From positions 186,001 to 250,000 of the forward strand of contig NZ_QAAA01000001.1 in the NCBI RefSeq assembly GCF_003046545.1: DNA of 64,000 bases, written 5' to 3'. Under the pieces are notes generated by a model. That model had not been told where the DNA came from and did no database searches. It saw only the letters and a program-made list of their open reading frames with translations. A program made the translations under genes and the position numbers. Shown here one piece after another: positions 47,379 through 64,000 of this stretch (position 1 is the stretch's first letter; each line of letters begins with the position of its first letter). Source of the stretch: Rhodovulum imhoffii (GTDB lineage Bacteria > Pseudomonadota > Alphaproteobacteria > Rhodobacterales > Rhodobacteraceae).

Positions 47379-47458
47379 GGCACCCCCTCCCTTGGGCGGC
47401 ATGAGACGTTCTGCGTGGCGGGGTGCGGGAAATCAACTCCCACCATGGTCGTAAGTTT

Positions 47459-54345: not shown

Positions 54346-55029
54346 TTAGCCCCGGTCGCAGCGGGGGATCAGGCCGTCGATCTGAAAACCCTGATTGCGC
54401 AGGGTTCTGATCTCAAAGCCAAAATCGTCACGTTTCAGCTTTTTGCGCAGATAGCCGATATAAACATCTACAACGTTCTCGCTGACCGAGCCGTCGACCG
54501 CCCAGAGCGCGTCGAAAATCGTCCCGCGAGGCAGGGGGCTTCCGGCGTTACGGATCAGCAGCACCAGCAGCGCGGTTTCGCGTTCGGTCAGGTCCGCCCG
54601 GGCCCTCCCGCGCGACAGGGAACGCGCGCTCAGGCATAGCGTGGCGGGCAATGGCTGGGTCTGTTCTGCCCGCAGTTCCTGCACCTTGAGCCTGGCCACC
54701 AATTCATCGAGGCTGAAGGGCTTGACTACATAATCGTTTGCGCCAGCCTCCAGCCCCGCGGCCCGGTCTTCGACATCGGACAGGGCGGACAACATCAGGA
54801 TCGGCAGTGTTGCGCCCCGTGCGCGCGCGTTGCGCACCAGGTCCTGCCCACTGTCGGCGCCCAGCATGACATCGACGATCGCCACGGAAAACGTACCGCT
54901 TTCCAAAAGCTCAAGCGCATGGTCGGCCCGGTTAGAGGCCTCTGCCTCATACCCGAAAAGGTGAAGGCCCCGCACCAGCGCCGAGGTGATTTCCGGGTCG
55001 TCGTCGACGATCAGAATACGGTTTTTCAT
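54346..55029 (-). CDS. OmpR-family response regulator
   Basis: A 227-residue regulator. The receiver has the acidic pocket VDDD (residues 8-11), phospho-acceptor Asp53 in AIVDVMLG and the Lys of YVVKPFS near residue 103. A winged-helix DNA-binding domain follows (about 130-222: LTERETALLVLLIRNAGSPL, VDVYIGYLRKKL). It is translated with the upstream kinase gene (ATGA overlap at 55026). Target genes unknown; a tandem 10-base repeat upstream of the kinase could be an autoregulatory site. Confidence 0.93.
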   Translation of the reverse strand: MKNRILIVDDDPEITSALVRGLHLFGYEAEASNRADHALELLESGTFSVAIVDVMLGADSGQDLVRNARARGATLPILMLSALSDVEDRAAGLEAGANDYVVKPFSLDELVARLKVQELRAEQTQPLPATLCLSARSLSRGRARADLTERETALLVLLIRNAGSPLPRGTIFDALWAVDGSVSENVVDVYIGYLRKKLKRDDFGFEIRTLRNQGFQIDGLIPRCDRG

Positions 55030-56681
55030 GCGTTACTCTCTGGCTTCGCGCGGGGCAGGCGCACCGTGATTTTCGTGCCCGCGCCATTGCCCAGGGCGTC
55101 TTCACGGGGCAGGGGGCTGGTCAGGATGATCTCGCCGCCATGTTCCTCGACCACCCAACGGGCAAGCGCCAGGCCGATCCCGAATCCCTGCGGCCCACCG
55201 TTTCCACCTTGGGCAAAACGGTCGAAAATGCGTGCCTGGTCCGCCGGAGCGATTCCGTTTCCATTGTCGATGACGGAGATTTCAACGCTATGCGTTTCGT
55301 ACGCGGCGCTCAGGGCAATACGACCGCCGGGGCGGGCGTGACGGATGGCATTGCGGATCAGGCTCACCAGCACCTGACGGATCCAGTTCGCATCGGCGCT
55401 CAGCCGGAGGGGGGGCGGGGTGCCGATGACGAATTTCATCCCGGCACTGTCGATTTCGGCGGCGACGTCTTGCTGTATCTCATCGAAAAGGCGCGTCAGG
55501 AGAACCGGCTGGGGATCCAGTTGCAACCTTCCGCTTTCGGATCGGGCCACTCGCAGCAGATCCTCGATACGGCGTGTCAGGCGTGCCGCGCGGGACTCGA
55601 TCGTTGCGAAGGCGCTGCGCGGATCTTCTGTTCCCTCGGCTCCGATCCGGGCTTCCATCAGGATGACGGTCAGAGGGGTCCGAAGCTCGTGGCTGACATC
55701 GGCAAAGAACCGGCGGCGGTTTTCGTCAATTTCAGCCAGACGGGCATTGGCGGTGCGCAACGCTTCGGTACGCCGGGCGATGGTTTCGTTCAGGCGCAAC
55801 CATTCAGCCTGAACCGCGCTGTGCCTTACAGACAGGGCAGAGGCCATGCGGTTGGTTTCCGCGTAGAGGTCCCCGATCTCGTCGATGTCGCCGGCGGGCA
55901 GACTGATGGCAAAGTTTTCCTGCCCGATCTGGTGCGCGGCCCGGCGCAGGGTGTCCAGCCGTGCGAATTGGGGCCGGATCAGGGCAAAATAAAAGGCAGC
56001 CACGGCCAAAACCGTCAGGGTGGCGATGGCAATGGCCGTCAGCCTGAGTACTGTGCGCTGGCTTTCGAGACCTGTCAGGATTTCATTACGTAACAGGAGT
56101 TCCGTATTGACGGCCTGCGCCAGCAATGGATCGAAACCCGCAGAAAAAACATCGATCGTGGTGCGCAACGCTGCGGAGTCGCGCCCTTCCGCCGCCAGCG
56201 CGCGGGTTGTGTTTTCCAAAAGTGCTTCCATCCGGGCAAGGCCGAGCGATTGCGTGCCGTAACGGGACTGGTCGTCCAGGCTCATCGTTTGGGATTTTGC
56301 AAGCGCATGTTCGAGGTCACGGTGCAGCGCGGCAAATGTCGTGTGCAACAGGCCGGAGATTGGTTGAATCCGCTCCTCGCGGGCCGCGGCGGGCAGGTCG
56401 CTCTGGACCGCCTCGCTCGCGATGACCAGATAGGTTGCCGCCTGGGCGGACAGCGTGGCATAGGCATCGATGCGGGCTTCTGCGGCCAGTGCCTTGTCCA
56501 GATGTGTCGCGACCTCCTCCATCCCGATCCACAGAATCGCTGCGGTCAGGAGTGTGCCGCCCCCCAGAAGCGCGGCCCCCAGCGCCAGCCGTGCCTTGAG
56601 GGACCGGAGCCAGGGAAGCCGGCGGCGCGAAAGCCCGGTTGCGCCGGCGTTGTGGGCGCTGTGGGGAGATGTCTCGTCCAT
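55026..56681 (-). CDS. sensor histidine kinase
   Basis: A 551-residue membrane kinase: helix 1 near residues 33-53, a periplasmic mostly helical sensor (about 54-212), helix 2 near 214-234, HAMP, coiled coil. The dimerisation domain with phospho-acceptor His331 is FFADVSHELRTPL. The ATPase domain has an N-box (LIRNAIRHARPGG), IDNGNGI and GFGIGLALARWVVEEHGG. It pairs with the OmpR-type regulator that follows and lies 193 bases downstream of a PQQ-alcohol-type ABC exporter, so a role in alcohol or solvent sensing is possible. The ligand is not predictable. Confidence 0.92.
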   Translation of the reverse strand: MDETSPHSAHNAGATGLSRRRLPWLRSLKARLALGAALLGGGTLLTAAILWIGMEEVATHLDKALAAEARIDAYATLSAQAATYLVIASEAVQSDLPAAAREERIQPISGLLHTTFAALHRDLEHALAKSQTMSLDDQSRYGTQSLGLARMEALLENTTRALAAEGRDSAALRTTIDVFSAGFDPLLAQAVNTELLLRNEILTGLESQRTVLRLTAIAIATLTVLAVAAFYFALIRPQFARLDTLRRAAHQIGQENFAISLPAGDIDEIGDLYAETNRMASALSVRHSAVQAEWLRLNETIARRTEALRTANARLAEIDENRRRFFADVSHELRTPLTVILMEARIGAEGTEDPRSAFATIESRAARLTRRIEDLLRVARSESGRLQLDPQPVLLTRLFDEIQQDVAAEIDSAGMKFVIGTPPPLRLSADANWIRQVLVSLIRNAIRHARPGGRIALSAAYETHSVEISVIDNGNGIAPADQARIFDRFAQGGNGGPQGFGIGLALARWVVEEHGGEIILTSPLPREDALGNGAGTKITVRLPRAKPESNA

Positions 56682-56874: not shown

Positions 56875-57666
56875 TCAGGGTTTGCGCCTGTTCAGGCCGC
56901 GGGCAGGGTCATACGCCCAGACTGCCAGCGCGGTGAACACCAGCGCGGATGTGGCCACCCATGCCAGCGCCCCCCAGTCGACCTGAAGATACAACGAGAA
57001 CCGGATCAGTTCCACGACATGTGTAAACGGATTGCCTGCGCAGATATCGCGCAGCAATGACGAGCTTTCGGCCATTTTCCACAGTGGATAGAGGGCCGAT
57101 GACAGGAAGAACATTGGAAAGATGACGAAGTTCATGATGCCGGCAAAGTTTTCCAGTTGCCGGATGAAACTGGACAGCAGCAACCCCAGTGCGCCCAGCA
57201 TCATCCCGCCCAGGGCCAGTGCGGGCAGAACGGCGGCATATCCGAGGGGCGGCATGACAATGCCAAACAAGGCGGCTATCGCAAGGAACACGTATACCTG
57301 GAGGATGGAGATCGCCGTTGCGCCTGCCAACCGCGAGACCAGCAACCACCAGCGTGGGAAAGGGCTGGTCAACAGAAGCCGCATGGATCCCATCTCACGG
57401 TCGTAAACCAGGCTGAGCGAGCTTTGCATCCCGTTGAACAAGAGCATCATCGCGCAAAGACCGGGCATGATATAGGTCTCATAGGTGATATAGGTCTGGT
57501 ATGGCGGGATGATTGACAGCCCCAATGCGGCGCGAAACCCCGAGGCGAACACCAAAAGCCAGACCAGAGGGCGCACAAGCGCGGCAAAAAACCGTTCCCG
57601 CTGATGGACGAAGCGCAGGAATTCGCGTGCGATAATGGCCCGGCTTACCCCCCAATACCCGTTCAT
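56875..57666 (-). CDS. ABC-2 type transporter permease
   Basis: A 263-residue permease with six predicted helices. Segments REFLRFVHQRERFFAALVRP, YDREMGSMRLLLTSPFPRWW and the FFLSSALYPLWKMAESS block are typical of ABC-2 permeases found beside PQQ-dependent alcohol dehydrogenase genes. Substrate unknown. Overlaps the ATPase gene by four bases (ATGA). Confidence 0.87.
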   Translation of the reverse strand: MNGYWGVSRAIIAREFLRFVHQRERFFAALVRPLVWLLVFASGFRAALGLSIIPPYQTYITYETYIMPGLCAMMLLFNGMQSSLSLVYDREMGSMRLLLTSPFPRWWLLVSRLAGATAISILQVYVFLAIAALFGIVMPPLGYAAVLPALALGGMMLGALGLLLSSFIRQLENFAGIMNFVIFPMFFLSSALYPLWKMAESSSLLRDICAGNPFTHVVELIRFSLYLQVDWGALAWVATSALVFTALAVWAYDPARGLNRRKP

Positions 57667-58409
57667 TCCGCCCCCCCGGTTCGTTTGAGGAACCAGTCTG
57701 ACAGGGGGGCGCCCTGGCGGATATCTCCGGTTATGCCCGCGGCGACGATCCGCCCCCGATGCAGTACCAGGAGGCGGTCCTCATCGCGGACCTCATCTGT
57801 GAGATGCGTTGTCCACAGGACGCAAAGCCCCTGGAGGGCGAGGTCGTGCACATGATCGGTGATGGACCGGCGTGCGGCGGCATCCAGCCCGACTGTCGGT
57901 TCATCCAGCAACAGCACTTTTGGGTCGTGCAGCAGCGCGCGGGCCAGTTCCATCCGGCGACGGTGCCCGCCGTTGAGGTCCCGGGCCTTTTCATCAGCCC
58001 GTTCGCGCATGCCCAGACGGTCGAGCGCGGCGTCGATACGGGGTGCCATCTGCGCCGGTGACAGGCCGTGGAGGGCCGCGAAATAGGCCAGATTTTGCCG
58101 CACCGACAGATTCAGATCCAGGGTCGGCTGTTGAAACACCACCCCAAGCCTGGTTAACGCGGCCCGCGGTGTCCGGGCCAGGTCATGCCCGCAGATGACG
58201 ATCCGGCCTTCCCGTGTGACCAGAAGACGGGTCAACAAGGCGATAAGCGTGGATTTCCCTGCCCCATTGGGGCCTAGCAACGCAGTGAACGCGCCCGCTC
58301 GTACGTCAAGCGACAGGTTATCCAGCGCCACCTTCGCACCGTAGCGAAAGGTCACGTTGCGCACGCTCAGCCCGCTGTCCGCATTTTCGGTTTTATTCGG
58401 TCCGGTCAT
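57663..58409 (-). CDS. ABC transporter ATP-binding protein, PQQ-alcohol-oxidation associated type
   Basis: A 248-residue exporter ATPase with GPNGAGKSTLIALLTRLL near residue 43, Q-loop FQQPTLDLNLSV, and Walker B VLLLDEPTVGLD. The signature LSGGQ is replaced by LNGGHRRRMELARALLH, a variant I associate with the subfamily encoded next to PQQ-dependent alcohol dehydrogenases. It partners the ABC-2 permease. Divergent from the GFA-family gene. Confidence 0.87.
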   Translation of the reverse strand: MTGPNKTENADSGLSVRNVTFRYGAKVALDNLSLDVRAGAFTALLGPNGAGKSTLIALLTRLLVTREGRIVICGHDLARTPRAALTRLGVVFQQPTLDLNLSVRQNLAYFAALHGLSPAQMAPRIDAALDRLGMRERADEKARDLNGGHRRRMELARALLHDPKVLLLDEPTVGLDAAARRSITDHVHDLALQGLCVLWTTHLTDEVRDEDRLLVLHRGRIVAAGITGDIRQGAPLSDWFLKRTGGAE

Positions 58410-58478
58410 ATCGATGTCAGAGCTTGCCCGGCGTGCCCGGCCTTTTCAAGCAAGGTGCGATACACACCTTAGTACGAA

Positions 58479-58492
58479 TTGACGGGAATCAC
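58479..58492. promoter_or_regulatory. weak FNR/CRP-like motif in the ABC-GFA divergent region
   Basis: TTGAC-GGGA-ATCAC shares the TTGA-N6-TCA core with the site at 618-631, but the outer base of each half is non-consensus. The same TTGACG could alternatively be a -35 element for the GFA gene. Low confidence. Confidence 0.22.
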
Positions 58493-58533
58493 CGCAGGGT
58501 CTGAACTTGGAATCTCAAAAAAGGGGGAGTTTC

Positions 58534-58974
58534 ATGGCGGATCATAAGTATCAGGGGGGCTGCGCCCATGTCACCGTCTATGCGGACGCGGAACCCATCG
58601 ACAACCATGAGTGCCATTGCAACGTCTGCAAGTCGGTCACCAATCAGCAAACGACTCATGTGGTGTTTTTCAACCATGCCGAACTGAAGGCTTCGGATGA
58701 AAGTAACATGAAACGTGTACCGTTCAATGCAGCCAATCCCGACGGGCCGCTTGAAATCTGCCTGTGCAAGGATTGCGATGCCGTGCTGATGCTTGATGAC
58801 AGGCAGAAACGCATTCGTGTCGCGGTGCCGAACATCATGGGATACAATCCAGCGCCGCCCGCCGCTTCTTATCACGCGTTCTGGGACCCTTCGAAAGGGT
58901 ATCCGAAACCCGATGACGGGCGGCCGGTCTACGATGGCTTGCGTCCGGATTTCGTATGGCCTCCGGGCGCCTGA
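58534..58974 (+). CDS. GFA family (glutathione-dependent formaldehyde-activating fold) protein
   Basis: A 146-residue zinc protein with the GFA/CENP-V pattern: GGCAHVTVYADAEP, the metal motif ECHCNVCKS near residue 28, and CLCKDCDAV near 81. The classical Gfa of Paracoccus (about 194 residues) promotes formaldehyde addition to glutathione; this protein is shorter and differs in sequence, so enzymatic equivalence is unproven. ATG 58534 follows AAGGGGGAG. Context (NarL regulator, FIST sensor, PQQ-type ABC) fits one-carbon metabolism. Confidence 0.85.
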   Translation: MADHKYQGGCAHVTVYADAEPIDNHECHCNVCKSVTNQQTTHVVFFNHAELKASDESNMKRVPFNAANPDGPLEICLCKDCDAVLMLDDRQKRIRVAVPNIMGYNPAPPAASYHAFWDPSKGYPKPDDGRPVYDGLRPDFVWPPGA

Positions 58975-59205: not shown

Positions 59206-59934
59206 ATGGCGCTTACAAACCCGTCTTTGACAGGGCGGCCGACGTGCATCCTGATCATCGACGACCATCCGCTCTACAGCGATGCGCTGGCCTCTGCCTT
59301 GCAGATGTGCTTCGAGGGATGTGCAATGCACCGCGCCTCCAGCATGGAGGAAACCGTTGCGGTTCTGGAAAGCGGTGTTGCGCCGGATCTGATCATGCTG
59401 GATTTGAAGCTGCCTGACGTGAACGGGATTTCAGGCTTCGAAAAGTTGCGGCAGCGGATGCCAAGGGCGCGTATCCTGGTAATTTCGTCCCTGGCCTCGG
59501 TGGAACTTGTGCAATCTCTTCTGGATCGTGGCGCGATGGGGTTTTTGCCCAAGGAAAGCCCGGCTTCGACCCTGCGCCATGCGGTCTCGGAAATCGCTTC
59601 GGGCCGACGCTACGTGCCCAGGGAATACCTTGCGCGCTTCGGCGGGCAAAGCGCCCGTTTCGACAACGGTGCCGATGTGTTCCAAACCAGCCAGGTGCTT
59701 GCCAGCCTGACGCCACAGCAAACCCGGATTCTGAAACTGATCCGCGCGGGGAAGCCGAACAAGCAGATCGCGTATGAACTTTCCCTGGCCGAGGCCACGG
59801 TCAAGGCTCACATCACGGCATTGTTGCGGCGACTGGGGGTACGCAACCGAACCCAGGCCGCCGTGATGGTCGAGGAACTCGAGGCACAACAGGCGGGCAA
59901 TGAACAAGAGGTTCGGACTTTTTTGAGAAACTGA
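59206..59934 (+). CDS. NarL/LuxR-family response regulator
   Basis: A 242-residue regulator. Receiver: LIIDDHPLYSDALASAL with acidic pair near residue 19, phospho-acceptor Asp66 in IMLDLKLPDV, Lys in GFLPKESPAS. The DNA-binding domain (about 165-228) contains LTPQQTRILKLIRAGKPNKQ and AEATVKAHITALLRRLGVRN. ATG 59206 has GGGAGG upstream. It is followed 10 bases later by the FIST-domain gene and then a hybrid kinase, its likely phosphodonor. Resembles ErbR/AgmR-type regulators of alcohol oxidation in pseudomonads. Confidence 0.92.
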   Translation: MALTNPSLTGRPTCILIIDDHPLYSDALASALQMCFEGCAMHRASSMEETVAVLESGVAPDLIMLDLKLPDVNGISGFEKLRQRMPRARILVISSLASVELVQSLLDRGAMGFLPKESPASTLRHAVSEIASGRRYVPREYLARFGGQSARFDNGADVFQTSQVLASLTPQQTRILKLIRAGKPNKQIAYELSLAEATVKAHITALLRRLGVRNRTQAAVMVEELEAQQAGNEQEVRTFLRN

Positions 59935-59944
59935 CGGGGCCAAG

Positions 59945-61111
59945 GTGAACGAAAGGGTAAAAGAGGGAAAACCGCATTATCTCTCGATCGGGCGTGCTGT
60001 TTCGCAGGTGGCCGAAGATGCGGTCGTCAGGGCTGTAGAGGGCCTGGAAGGATCGCAGGCCTGTTTCGTTCTGGCCTTTGTCCCGGCCCATCTGGACATC
60101 GACGAAACCGTTGCGGCGCTGGGGCGCCATTTGCGGGGAATCCCCGTGTATGGTTGTACCACTGCCGGGCAGATCACGACGCAAGGATACGAAAGTGATG
60201 CGCTGCTGTTGCTGGCTTTTCCGAAGGAACATTTTCGCTGCGCATCGCTCCTTTTCTCGGATCTGGCACCGATTTCGGCGCCTGCAATTGGCGCGGCCGC
60301 CCAGAAACTGGCAGAGAAATTCCGCCATACAGTTGGCTGGAACCGCCTGGCCCTGATTTTCGCGGACGGCCTTTGCAAGCAGGAAGACCTTTTGGCCTCG
60401 ACGCTGGAAACCGCTCTGGACGGGCTGCCGACCTTTGGCGGGTCGGCGGGCGATGGGTTCAGGTTCGAACGGACTTTTGTTCTGCATGGCGGGCGGGCCC
60501 ATACCGATGCGGCGGTCCTGATCCTGCTGGAAACGGATCTGGAGTTTCAGGGGCTTGGCTTCGACCATTTCCTGCCTGTCGGCCGGCAGGTTGTCATTAC
60601 CGGGGCAGATCCCGAAGAACGGCGCGTCTACGAGATAAATGGCGCCCCGGCCGCACTGGAATATGCGCGCCTTGTCGGCTGCTCTGTCGACCAGTTGTCC
60701 CCCGAGATTTTCGCCGAGAACCCGATGCTCCTGCGCCACAACCGGAAATACTACATCCGCGCTGTCCGCAACGTTTCCGAAAACCACGCCATTTCCTTTC
60801 TGGCGGCCATTGACGACGGGCTGATCCTGACCCTTGGGCGCGGACAGGCAATCATTGAAACGCTGGAAAGCGAACTTGACCTGGCCAATGACAATGGCAA
60901 TCCACCGGATTTCATTCTTGGTTTCGATTGTGCCCTTCGAAAGCTCGAGATCGAACAAAAGCAACTCCACGAGCCGGTATCCGGCATTCTCAGGAAGCGG
61001 CGGGTCTTTGGCTTTAACACCTATGGCGAACAAAATTCCGGGGTTCACATCAACCAGACCTTTGTGGGCGTTGCTTTCTTCGAACCCCAGCCCCGGGCGC
61101 TGAACCTGTGA
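59945..61111 (+). CDS. FIST-domain sensory protein (NosP-like)
   Basis: A 388-residue soluble protein with FIST-N (about 25-225: LRGIPVYGCTTAGQI, LPTFGGSAGDGFRFER, VLHGGRAHTDAAVLIL) and FIST-C (about 225-370: FAENPMLLRHNRKYYIRAVR, FILGFDCALRKLEIE, VFGFNTYGEQNSGVHINQTF). FIST proteins are proposed small-molecule sensors; the Pseudomonas member NosP binds haem and nitric oxide and controls a co-encoded hybrid kinase (NahK). The same pairing is seen here: its stop overlaps the kinase start (GTGA at 61108). GTG start. Ligand in this organism is unknown. Confidence 0.88.
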   Translation: MNERVKEGKPHYLSIGRAVSQVAEDAVVRAVEGLEGSQACFVLAFVPAHLDIDETVAALGRHLRGIPVYGCTTAGQITTQGYESDALLLLAFPKEHFRCASLLFSDLAPISAPAIGAAAQKLAEKFRHTVGWNRLALIFADGLCKQEDLLASTLETALDGLPTFGGSAGDGFRFERTFVLHGGRAHTDAAVLILLETDLEFQGLGFDHFLPVGRQVVITGADPEERRVYEINGAPAALEYARLVGCSVDQLSPEIFAENPMLLRHNRKYYIRAVRNVSENHAISFLAAIDDGLILTLGRGQAIIETLESELDLANDNGNPPDFILGFDCALRKLEIEQKQLHEPVSGILRKRRVFGFNTYGEQNSGVHINQTFVGVAFFEPQPRALNL

Positions 61112-63369
61112 GTGAGATGACAGACCCTTCCGAACCGCCCGAGGTTCGGCTTGAGCGGCTGGAGAAAATCATCGACGCACTGATCCGCCGTGCCAACCGG
61201 CAAGACGATATCGGCCCTGCCGCCTTTCGGGCGTTCCAGTCGGCGATTGAGCTTCAGGAACGGGTGGAGGCCCAGACCCGAGATCTCGAGCGTGCGGAAA
61301 CCGAGCTGGAGAGCGTGCGTTATGAACGCGAACGCACGCGGCGCAGCCTGGTTGATGCCTTGTCGTCCATGGCCGAAGGGTTTGCCCTTTTCATGGATGG
61401 AAAGCTGCATGTCACAAATGGCTTCATGGCCAACCTTTTGCCGGATCGCGCCGAAGATTTCGTTCCGGGTCTGGGGGTCAGCGGGTTTTTCAAACTGATT
61501 GCCGAAAGCAATGCCTTTACCTCTGCGGACCGTAACCTGCGTGAGGTTGGTGCACGTCTGTCGCGTCAAAACATGCAGGAGGACATGAAGGTTGTCGTGG
61601 AGCTGTCCGGGGACCGCTGGTACCAGTTGAACGCCCAGCACACGTCCGGTGAGAACCTTGTCCTGCTGATGACAGAGATCACCCAATTGGTGCGCCGCAA
61701 CCGGCAGGAAAAAGAAACCCTGATCGATCTGCAGGAGGATTATCTGCGCGCGGTTTTCCAGCACATGAGCCCGGGCGTGTGCACGATTTCGGCGCAGGGT
61801 CAGATCTTGCTGTTGAACTTTCAGTTTCATGAACTGCTGGGAATTCCGCCCGCCGATCTGAAACCGGGTATGCGCATGGGCAAGATGATCGATCTGCTCA
61901 AGATGCGGGGCCTGTTGAGTGCGAGTGATGAGTTTCGGCTCAGCGTGTGGCGTAACGAGTTGCGGACACGGGGACAGGTGCGACGCCGGATCCGTCCCGG
62001 CGCGGGAAAGGTGTTGGAAGTCCGTGCCACCCGGTTGCCCGGCGGCGGCTTCGTTGTCGAGGTCAGGGACGTGACGCTTGAGGTGCGGACCACCGAAATG
62101 CTGGAAGAGCGTGTCAAGGAGCGCACGGTCGAACTGACCATGGCCAATGAAAGGCTGAGGATGGAATATCGCGAAAAAGCGCGGGTCGAGGAAGAACTGC
62201 GCATCGCGCGTGACCGGGCCGAAGCGGCGATTTCTTCCAAGACGCGGTTTCTCGCGGCGGCCAGCCATGACCTGTTGCAGCCGATCAACGCGGCGCAGCT
62301 TTTGATTTCGACGCTCCGGGAAACCACCCGGCAAAGTGCCTTCCACCCGATGGTGGAGCGGTTGTTCGGGGCCTTCGGGTCGGTGGAACAGTTGTTGCGC
62401 TCCTTGCTGGACATTTCCAGGCTCGAAAGCGCAGATGCCGATGCGGTTTCGATCGAACCGATCCGCCTGGATACCTTGATGAGCGGGATACAAGGCGACC
62501 AGGCGTTGATGGCAGAACAGAAGAACATCCGTTTCGATGTCGTCTTGTCTTCTGCTGTCGTGATCTCGGATTCGATCTACCTGTTGCGGTCGATCCAGAA
62601 CCTCGTGGTCAATGCGATCCAGTACACGCCGCCGGGCGGGCGGGTGCTGGTGGGGTGCCGCCGGAAAGGCAAAGAAGTCGAGCTTCAGGTCTGGGACACC
62701 GGAATCGGGATTGCGCGGGCCGATCAGCTGCGGATCTTCGAGGAATTCACGCGCGGCGAAGGCGCCGGGCTGAGCGCGGGTGTCGGGCTGGGCCTGTCGG
62801 TCGTCGACCGGGCTTGCAGGCTTTTGGGGCACAAGCTTTTCGTGCGTTCCGCACCGGGGGTCGGGTCGATGTTCTCGATCACCATGGGCGTGGCCGAAGA
62901 CGCACCCAGGCGGGGGGAGCCGCCGCGCGCGCTGACGCAGTCCGAAGACCTGAGGCTGGATCACATTGTGCTTGTGATAGAGAACGACGAGGACGTCCTT
63001 TACAGCACTACCAAATGGCTTGAACAGGCGGGCGCAAGCGTTCAGCCGGCCCGTTCGGTCCGCGAGGCGATCGAATTCGTCAACGACATGGGAATGCCCC
63101 CCGACATCATCCTGGCGGATTATCAACTGGATCAGGGAGAAACCGGGGTGGAGGCGATCTCATGCGTGCGTGCTTTGACCAATGCCCATGTTCCGGCAAT
63201 CATGATTACGGCGAACCGCAGTGAAAGCCTGCGTGAGGCGGGTTTGCTCAATGACGTGTCGGTGATGGCCAAGCCCGTCAAGATGGCGCGCCTGAAGCAG
63301 CTCATCGACTGGAAGATCAAAATGAAGGGAAGGCGCAGGCTCGGGGGCACCGATAAAAGTCGGCAGTGA
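61108..63369 (+). CDS. hybrid sensor histidine kinase with receiver domain (NahK-like)
   Basis: A 753-residue protein without membrane helices. Order: N-terminal coiled coil (about 30-80), two PAS-like domains (about 82-190 and 205-335), coiled coil, dimerisation domain with His387 (FLAAASHDLLQPINAAQLL), ATPase domain (NLVVNAIQYTPPGG; WDTGIGI; GVGLGLSVVDRAC), and a receiver (VLVIENDEDVLYS; Asp671 in ILADYQLDQG; MAKPVK). It would be governed by the FIST protein and signal to the NarL-type regulator; the PAS layout and SHDLLQP box are like NahK/ErcS' of pseudomonads. GTG start overlapping the FIST stop. Confidence 0.9.
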   Translation: MSEMTDPSEPPEVRLERLEKIIDALIRRANRQDDIGPAAFRAFQSAIELQERVEAQTRDLERAETELESVRYERERTRRSLVDALSSMAEGFALFMDGKLHVTNGFMANLLPDRAEDFVPGLGVSGFFKLIAESNAFTSADRNLREVGARLSRQNMQEDMKVVVELSGDRWYQLNAQHTSGENLVLLMTEITQLVRRNRQEKETLIDLQEDYLRAVFQHMSPGVCTISAQGQILLLNFQFHELLGIPPADLKPGMRMGKMIDLLKMRGLLSASDEFRLSVWRNELRTRGQVRRRIRPGAGKVLEVRATRLPGGGFVVEVRDVTLEVRTTEMLEERVKERTVELTMANERLRMEYREKARVEEELRIARDRAEAAISSKTRFLAAASHDLLQPINAAQLLISTLRETTRQSAFHPMVERLFGAFGSVEQLLRSLLDISRLESADADAVSIEPIRLDTLMSGIQGDQALMAEQKNIRFDVVLSSAVVISDSIYLLRSIQNLVVNAIQYTPPGGRVLVGCRRKGKEVELQVWDTGIGIARADQLRIFEEFTRGEGAGLSAGVGLGLSVVDRACRLLGHKLFVRSAPGVGSMFSITMGVAEDAPRRGEPPRALTQSEDLRLDHIVLVIENDEDVLYSTTKWLEQAGASVQPARSVREAIEFVNDMGMPPDIILADYQLDQGETGVEAISCVRALTNAHVPAIMITANRSESLREAGLLNDVSVMAKPVKMARLKQLIDWKIKMKGRRRLGGTDKSRQ

Positions 63370-63412: not shown

Positions 63413-64000
63413 ATGATGAAACGACCGATCATCGCCGTGGCCGTGGCGCTTGGTGCCGCTATGGGGGCTGCCCTGGCCGCCGGGGCGCAGGAGACGAAGA
63501 GCTACGATCTTCTGTTTCGCAACGGAACGCTGGACACCGTGGGTCGGGATGCCGCGCTGGTCTATCGCCGTGAGGTAACCAGCCCGCTGGTTCCAGGCGC
63601 CGAAACCCGCGATAGCGGGCATGTCATGCTCAGTTTCAGTGCGGATGACATGTCGATGGTGGAACTGACACTGAAACAGGCGGGCGGGGATCGTGTCCTT
63701 GGGCGGTTTCCGGCCAGCGTTGGCAACCCGATGATCATGTATTTCTACGAAAGCGTCATCCGCGACATGGCCGAGGCGGCAGGCGGCAGTCCGTTTTACA
63801 TCCGCAATCGGGTCAAGGAGGCGCTCGGCTCCCCCGCCGAAACACAGGCCGGTCAGGCCGTCCTGAACGGCCGGGTCATTCCGACCACCACGATCAGCCT
63901 GCGGCCTTTCGAATCCGATCCCAACCGTGACCGCATGAAGGGCTTTGACGATCTGGTGCTGCGTGTGGCCATGTCGGATGAGGTGCCCGGCTGGTATGTC
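63413..64000 (+). CDS. exported protein of unknown function (partial, 3' end outside window)
   Basis: An open frame from ATG 63413 (or 63416), preceded by GGGAGGAA, is still open at the window end; 196 codons are visible. Residues 1-27 form a signal peptide (KRPIIAVAVALGAAMGAALA, cleavage likely near AGA-Q). The mature part (ETKSYDLLFRNGTLDTVGRD, YRREVTSPLVPG, MIMYFYESVIRDMAEAAGGS, FYIRNRVKEAL) contains no motif I recognise. It lies 43 bases after the kinase gene and may be part of the same locus. Confidence 0.8.
   Translation, partial: MMKRPIIAVAVALGAAMGAALAAGAQETKSYDLLFRNGTLDTVGRDAALVYRREVTSPLVPGAETRDSGHVMLSFSADDMSMVELTLKQAGGDRVLGRFPASVGNPMIMYFYESVIRDMAEAAGGSPFYIRNRVKEALGSPAETQAGQAVLNGRVIPTTTISLRPFESDPNRDRMKGFDDLVLRVAMSDEVPGWYV

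Follow-up and report, generated by a model that had tools for sequence, protein, structure and literature searches.

The window analysed here is a stretch of 64,000 nucleotides from Rhodovulum imhoffii (contig NZ_QAAA01000001.1, positions 186,001 to 250,000), and the system in question is a set of three forward-strand genes close to its end, encoding a response regulator, a FIST protein and a histidine kinase. The first gene (59206-59934) encodes a NarL/FixJ-type response regulator resembling FlhR and AfdR, with Pfam matches to Response_reg (72.6 bits) and GerE (68.7 bits). The second (59945-61111) encodes a putative sensor, assigned by Pfam, model and tree as a NosP homologue that holds the position of Orf2, AfdT and RfdT (see below); it consists of a FIST (PF08495, 143.9 bits) and a FIST_C domain (PF10442, 66.5 bits), both above the gathering score. 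The third (61108-63369) encodes a soluble hybrid histidine kinase similar to FlhS and AfdS and related to NahK/ErcS', with PAS_7 (91 bits), HisKA, HATPase_c and Response_reg domains. All domains of the three proteins score above the Pfam cut-offs, and the phospho-residues expected by motif are found, namely Asp66 in the receiver of the regulator (codon starting at 59401), His387 in the kinase and Asp671 in the receiver of the kinase.

A sequence-only reading of this DNA had stated that the FIST gene follows the regulator by 10 bases and overlaps the kinase start, and that the three are made together. The coordinates agree with this layout, the FIST and kinase genes sharing four bases, and the genes probably form one transcriptional unit. 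The order is largely kept across 60 loci that surround FIST homologues from this bacterial family (32 in subfamily A and 28 in a set B that here includes locus L108). A homologous kinase adjoins the FIST gene on the same strand in 57 of these (A 32/32, B 25/28), and a regulator gene immediately precedes it on that strand in 58 (A 31/32, B 27/28). In a genus-mate (G003:C1:847911-849043) the FIST match is split across two overlapping frames, which may reflect decay of the copy or an error in sequencing.

The same gene order has been described for formaldehyde-responsive two-component systems. According to the accessible part of a review, orf2 of Paracoccus denitrificans sits between flhR and flhS, while in Rhodobacter sphaeroides afdT lies between afdR and afdS and rfdT between rfdR and rfdS (PMC4776306). 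AfdRS activates adhI with formaldehyde, FlhRS activates flhA and fghA, and an flhRS mutant of P. denitrificans failed to activate these two genes (PMC4776306). The comparison was made with Paracoccus and Cereibacter homologues, so that Orf2, AfdT and RfdT are taken to be FIST proteins from their position and genus. When one genome per genus of the family was searched, 125 of 296 had a FIST homologue, and the window protein belongs, by score and tree, to subfamily A, found in 26 of the 296 including its own. In a quick tree subfamily A forms one clade of 25 rows with a support of 99 in the Shimodaira-Hasegawa-like approximate likelihood ratio test, and it joins five of the six rows of a Paracoccus/R. 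sphaeroides-like type P and four rows of group B in a 34-row clade, also with a support of 99; L177, labelled P, clusters with B. P-type FIST proteins are matched in 93 of 110 Paracoccus genomes, some at only about 42% identity.

One R. sphaeroides-like genome (G087; 4.6 Mb in seven contigs) has a FIST protein 84% identical to that of Cereibacter ovatus and contains two regulator-FIST-kinase loci. The first belongs to group P and lies 13 kb from the only glutathione-dependent formaldehyde dehydrogenase gene above the cut-off in that genome, while the second belongs to group B and adjoins a molybdenum aldehyde oxidoreductase. We take this genome to be that of R. sphaeroides 2.4.1. These two loci are consistent with the afd and rfd systems on record, in either assignment. 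Altogether, the window unit is very probably a member of the FlhRS/AfdRS type of formaldehyde two-component systems, and the FIST protein is most likely a little-studied yet conserved third component of such switches. The ligand and output of the alphaproteobacterial version had been called undescribed in the sequence-only reading; of the two, the output has been published for FlhRS, AfdRS and RfdRS, as far as the accessible text of PMC4776306 goes.

The FIST protein shows a number of strictly conserved residues. Among 181 FIST proteins spanning all groups, some duplicates included, Cys329, Glu362, His368, Asp141, Arg226, Arg272 and Asn370 are present in all 181, Cys71 in 178 and His208 in 170. 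Every one of these is also found in all 24 NosP proteins scoring over the curated cut-off of the NosP model; these 24 form part of the 31 of 397 genomes that pass the cut-off, and were picked to represent different genera, some of them more than once. The predicted structure of the FIST protein has a predicted local distance difference test score (pLDDT) of 91.7, and its four best matches in the PDB are chains of human FBXO22 (Foldseek E about 1e-7). The next match is weak (cyanuric acid hydrolase, 4nq3_B, E 7e-4, template modelling (TM) score 0.25).

Aldehydes add reversibly to Cys326 of FBXO22 as a hemithioacetal, and ubiquitination driven by degraders was abolished when the adjacent Glu362 was replaced by alanine, as stated in the available portions of two reports (PMC13316043; PMC11208438). 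The Pfam FIST_C profile matches both FBXO22 and the window protein above the cut-off. In this profile Cys329 (codon 60929-60931, forward strand) occupies position 92, as does FBXO22 Cys326, and Glu362 (codon 61028-61030, forward strand) position 128, as does FBXO22 Glu362; the positions were counted from the ends of fragment matches, assuming no gap beside those ends. This register, taken from the profile, was relied on in preference to single-sequence alignments, and the equivalence of the two residue pairs is thus predicted from sequence. Among the matches listed in the open-licence literature, no title proposed FIST as an aldehyde sensor.

The genes around the FIST loci were compared in stretches of up to 20 kb, using limits on identity and coverage and the markers FlhA, FghA, XoxF, ExaA-like, ExaC, molybdenum aldehyde oxidoreductase, PedC and SoxH-like. 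Locus L108 was counted under P, having been shifted there from B beforehand, several A loci end at contig ends, and the 40 control stretches were placed by hand on FIST-bearing genomes, not drawn by script. At least one marker of alcohol or aldehyde oxidation is found in 31/32 A loci, 23/27 B loci, 4/6 P loci, 19/24 over-cut-off NosP loci and 8/15 loci of lower-scoring members of the NosP family, compared to 0/40 controls. An oxidising enzyme proper is found in 25/32, 22/27, 0/6, 13/24, 8/15 and 0/40, respectively. The four P loci with a marker have accessory genes and the other two have none, and seven of the 15 lower-scoring loci are likewise without any marker. The marker references were drawn from B loci and the genome of R. 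imhoffii itself, making the A and B counts partly circular, while those for the NosP, lower-scoring and control stretches are not. Because the NosP count is free of this circularity, it can be said that the NosP genes in this sample mostly accompany loci that produce or consume aldehydes. The neighbours identified in group B are the acetaldehyde dehydrogenase ExaC, above the cut-off, and a molybdenum aldehyde/CO-dehydrogenase-like trio with CoxG.

In B loci such as L105, L109, L116 and L118 the three-gene unit adjoins the molybdenum trio with CoxG, the large subunit of which is present in 9 of 27 B loci; this pairing may mark the substrate of the molybdenum enzyme as an aldehyde. On a plasmid of Pantoea agglomerans (NZ_CP143419.1) a FIST-bearing chemoreceptor adjoins an annotated NAD(P)-dependent alcohol dehydrogenase.

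In R. imhoffii most of the genes downstream lie outside the window, in the continuation of the genome (assembly 2.9 Mb). The kinase is followed by a gene for a conserved protein of unassigned family (63413-64000, forward strand, running beyond the window), a clustered homologue of which is found in 31 of 32 A loci. The only glutathione-dependent formaldehyde dehydrogenase gene above the cut-off in the genome (flhA; G000:C1:253205-254308; TIGR02818, 612 bits) lies 3.8 kb past the kinase. Two small genes without a family match and a quinoprotein-relay metallohydrolase gene (TIGR04559, above cut-off) lie between them. Past flhA come fghA (TIGR02821, above cut-off), a cytochrome c gene, a gene for a dehydrogenase of the pyrroloquinoline quinone (PQQ) methanol/ethanol family at the place of xoxF (TIGR03075, above cut-off), a methanol-related cytochrome gene (TIGR03874, above cut-off) and, at the end of the series, a gene that weakly resembles binding proteins (SBP_bac_3, 21.1 bits against a cut-off of 26.4). 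A plasmid of Ruegeria sp. AD91A (NZ_CP031947.1) carries the same series in its public annotation, where the names S-(hydroxymethyl)glutathione dehydrogenase, S-formylglutathione hydrolase and XoxF5 are used. Also downstream of the window, an open reading frame at L002 1052-1909 on the reverse strand is found at the place of the opposite-strand SoxYZ-like gene of 27/32 A loci, and the own genome has a SoxYZ match at L002 10064-10873.

Upstream of the regulator is a gene with a GFA (glutathione-dependent formaldehyde-activating) domain (58507-58974, forward strand; Pfam 37.5 bits, cut-off 24.3). Its likelier start is the ATG at 58534, which is preceded by GGGGGAG. Beyond it, on the reverse strand and outside the switch, are genes for a PedB-type ATP-binding cassette (ABC) ATPase of PQQ-alcohol-dehydrogenase systems (57663-58409; TIGR03864, 342 bits, cut-off 302.25) and a PedC-type ABC permease (56875-57666; TIGR03861, 418 bits, cut-off 241.35). 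The GFA/PQQ-type setting proposed earlier is thereby borne out. PedCB is adjoined by genes for an OmpR-type regulator and a membrane kinase (54346-56681, reverse strand). Homologues of the two stand next to PedB/PedC in L065, L066 and L142, and L125, L133 and L134 have them close to the FIST locus; the pair may form a metal or lanthanide switch acting on the PedBC transporter.

Of 53 related loci, 51 carry a 22-bp box, ACccACcAtgGTCt.aATTGTt, whose start lies some 90 to 120 bp ahead of flhA; the same 53 loci served to fit its matrix, the own genome being excluded and the threshold set low, at 8. Its first trace was a set of gapped words found in 25 of 54 upstream regions, as compared to 6 in each of two shuffles. 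A site near the place of flhA that scores above the best control is found in 30 of the 32 A loci; L064 and L066 show no flhA in the stretch covered. The best match in the window, a candidate operator at 58462-58483 on the forward strand, stands before the GFA-like gene and scores 17.0. The best of 40 control stretches of 20 kb scored 15.8, none of 500 shuffles scored as high as the window site, and the next match in the window, at 47438, scored 14.5. The box is a candidate site for the NarL-type regulator, and the GFA-like gene is perhaps part of the same regulon as the switch. Exact inverted repeats upstream of flhA, xoxF and the regulator, cytochrome and SoxH-like genes gave no shared site, the commonest occurring in three to seven loci, and the gapped words found ahead of the cytochrome gene were discounted, since they probably lie within the coding sequence of fghA.

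Put together, these observations suggest the following mechanism. The xoxF-type dehydrogenase would oxidise methanol to formaldehyde, and formaldehyde in the cytoplasm would add reversibly to Cys329 of FIST as a hemithioacetal, aided by Glu362, as other aldehydes do with the Cys326/Glu362 pair of FBXO22. Once loaded, the FIST protein would alter the autophosphorylation of the soluble hybrid kinase to which it is bound, and the phosphate would be passed to the NarL-type regulator. By binding the 22-bp box in the promoters of flhA and the GFA-like gene, the regulator would then switch on glutathione-dependent formaldehyde oxidation. The steps that we infer are the capture of an aldehyde by FIST, the influence of FIST on the kinase and the binding of the regulator to the box; the output on flhA or adhI is presumed by analogy with the published relatives. 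The chain as a whole, a Rhodovulum version of the FlhR-T-FlhS/AfdRTS switch beside its expected targets in which FIST senses aldehydes and acts through the regulator, is proposed tentatively and given somewhat less than an even chance. Aldehyde sensing by FIST is the likeliest of the mechanisms considered, but that it proceeds by way of Cys329 is likewise a tentative claim, rated slightly lower. It is rather doubtful, though conceivable, that FIST is an ancient aldehyde-sensing domain whose invariant cysteine, with activation by an equally invariant glutamate, reversibly captures small aldehydes, both in bacterial NosP/FlhT proteins that lie beside enzymes oxidising alcohols or aldehydes and, at these two positions, in FBXO22; the published response of NosP to nitric oxide (NO) would then be secondary or parallel.

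Several observations weigh against aldehyde sensing by FIST in such a switch. The FIST domain of the Pantoea chemoreceptor and a Sulfurovum FIST protein keep Cys329, Arg332 and Glu362 but not Cys71, His208 and His368, so the Cys/Glu pair does not mark aldehyde sensors as such, and the conserved cysteine and glutamate could serve haem binding or structure. The structural resemblance to FBXO22 is moderate (TM score about 0.5, root-mean-square deviation 9). With FBXO22 as a single sequence, hhalign and MAFFT did not recover the Cys-to-Cys register; hhalign placed the C-lobe of FBXO22 onto the N-lobe of the window protein with a probability of 0.9 to 29%, giving 0.1% or less for C-lobe against C-lobe, while MAFFT yielded other registers. 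The six P-labelled loci have no oxidising enzyme within the stretch covered for each. The box before the own flhA, at -94, is weak and differently spaced, with a score of 3.2 that 15 of 500 shuffles reached. Finally, adhI expression with formaldehyde was unaffected in an rfdT mutant of R. sphaeroides, according to the part of the paper at hand (PMC4776306).

The last observation would also be expected if FIST were only a structural partner or tuner and the kinase itself read the input, for example the redox or quinone state, through PAS_7 or its N-terminal region. Both the window kinase and that of L204, the second such locus of the R. sphaeroides-like genome, carry a PAS_7 or PAS domain, and a sister kinase in Pseudomonas has been proposed to be paired with the iron-containing alcohol dehydrogenase YiaY instead, in what is accessible of PMC12997753. 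However, the kinases of L108 (R. sphaeroides-like) and L160 (Paracoccus acridae) consist of HisKA, HATPase and receiver only, PAS being absent by Pfam, and still have FIST adjacent. Including these two, the kinases of five of the six P-labelled loci are short, with 440-477 amino acids, and the close linkage of FIST and kinase genes across the family also speaks against this reading. If the P. denitrificans kinase is of the short type, FIST is the likeliest remaining sensor. Sensing by the kinase itself is held to be unlikely.

The sequence-only reading had likened the unit to NosP and NahK and named NO, formaldehyde or another small molecule as input. The likeness holds as homology, since among NCBIfam models those for NosP and NahK match best, yet the scores stay under the curated cut-offs: 349.1 bits for FIST with the NosP model NF041558 (cut-off 450), and 364.3 and 328.3 bits for the kinase with the NahK/ErcS' models NF041831 and NF041832 (cut-offs 1500 and 400). 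In a NosP-type NO sensor, FIST would bind haem, NO would alter the kinase, and the regulator would tie one-carbon metabolism or the denitrification state to NO. NO/haem control of kinases by NosP has been published (PMC12570481, available in part), the conservation of His368, Cys71 and His208 leaves room for a shared haem site, and the own genome encodes NirK above the cut-off, so NO can arise. On the other hand, the published output of the relatives is formaldehyde oxidation, as the accessible text has it (PMC4776306). NirK is above the cut-off in 7 of 40 genomes and flavohaemoprotein in 6, and unlike the alcohol and aldehyde markers no such match lies within 20 kb of FIST on its contig, most NirK matches being on other contigs and NO reductase genes not having been searched; a sub-cut-off fragment of 59 residues of a flavohaemoprotein lies about 10 kb from a NosP gene in genome G558. 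The tested gene context thus lends no support to NO and fits formaldehyde best, and an NO sensor is rated improbable.

That FIST instead senses another pathway product or signal, such as S-hydroxymethylglutathione, PQQ or a lanthanide, would agree with the neighbouring glutathione-dependent formaldehyde dehydrogenase, PedBC and PQQ accessory genes and with the box before the GFA-like gene, but is very improbable, other FIST loci adjoining ethanol-type PQQ dehydrogenases, ExaC or molybdenum aldehyde oxidoreductases, for which the plainest common factor would be an aldehyde.

The possibility of aldehyde sensing by FIST is of interest for several reasons. How AfdRS and RfdRS sense formaldehyde was called unknown, and both seem to be without conserved cysteines, judging from the available text of PMC4776306; the middle FIST protein has two highly conserved ones, Cys71 and Cys329. 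If the proposal is true, a single residue pair would answer how systems of this type sense a toxic metabolite of methanol users. It would also put the NosP family in a new light, provide a natural reason why FBXO22 reacts with aldehydes, a property exploited in drug design, and offer a soluble formaldehyde sensor for synthetic methylotrophy. The three-gene order itself was already known; what is new here is the presence of Cys and Glu at the FBXO22 positions, the two PAS-less kinases that keep FIST, and the 22-bp box.

Compared to known systems, the window protein shares with FBXO22, a human FIST-domain subunit of a ubiquitin ligase, the FIST fold and the Cys/Arg/Glu positions of FIST_C. FBXO22 differs in being a eukaryotic F-box protein known to capture aldehydes in the form of synthetic degraders; a natural ligand of this kind is not mentioned in the accessible portions of PMC13316043 and PMC11208438. 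As in NosP-NahK (PA1975-PA1976) and in PP_2663-PedS1-AgmR of the Pseudomonas ped cluster, the FIST protein adjoins a soluble hybrid kinase, which it does in 22 of the 24 NosP loci, and the surroundings of PQQ-dependent alcohol oxidation and the conserved residues are the same. The DNA-binding regulator, earlier regarded as an addition special to this version, is not so, as a homologous regulator is found within 7 kb in 20 of the 24 NosP loci; that of Pseudomonas is AgmR/ErbR (PMC12997753, Table 1, in the part available). The difference lies in the arrangement, since the regulator is first in the operon here, while it is directly upstream on the same strand in none of the 24, and in the output, which here would be at the level of DNA on one-carbon genes as opposed to HptB and biofilm for NosP-NahK. 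The closest resemblance in gene order is to FlhRS/Orf2, AfdRS/AfdT and RfdRS/RfdT, where regulator, middle gene and kinase likewise follow each other on one strand. The glutathione-dependent formaldehyde dehydrogenase, which is the output of the published FlhRS and AfdRS systems, is here a neighbouring gene. The window kinase has a PAS domain, unlike the two P-type kinases scanned, and flhA-fghA-xoxF follows directly downstream of the switch.

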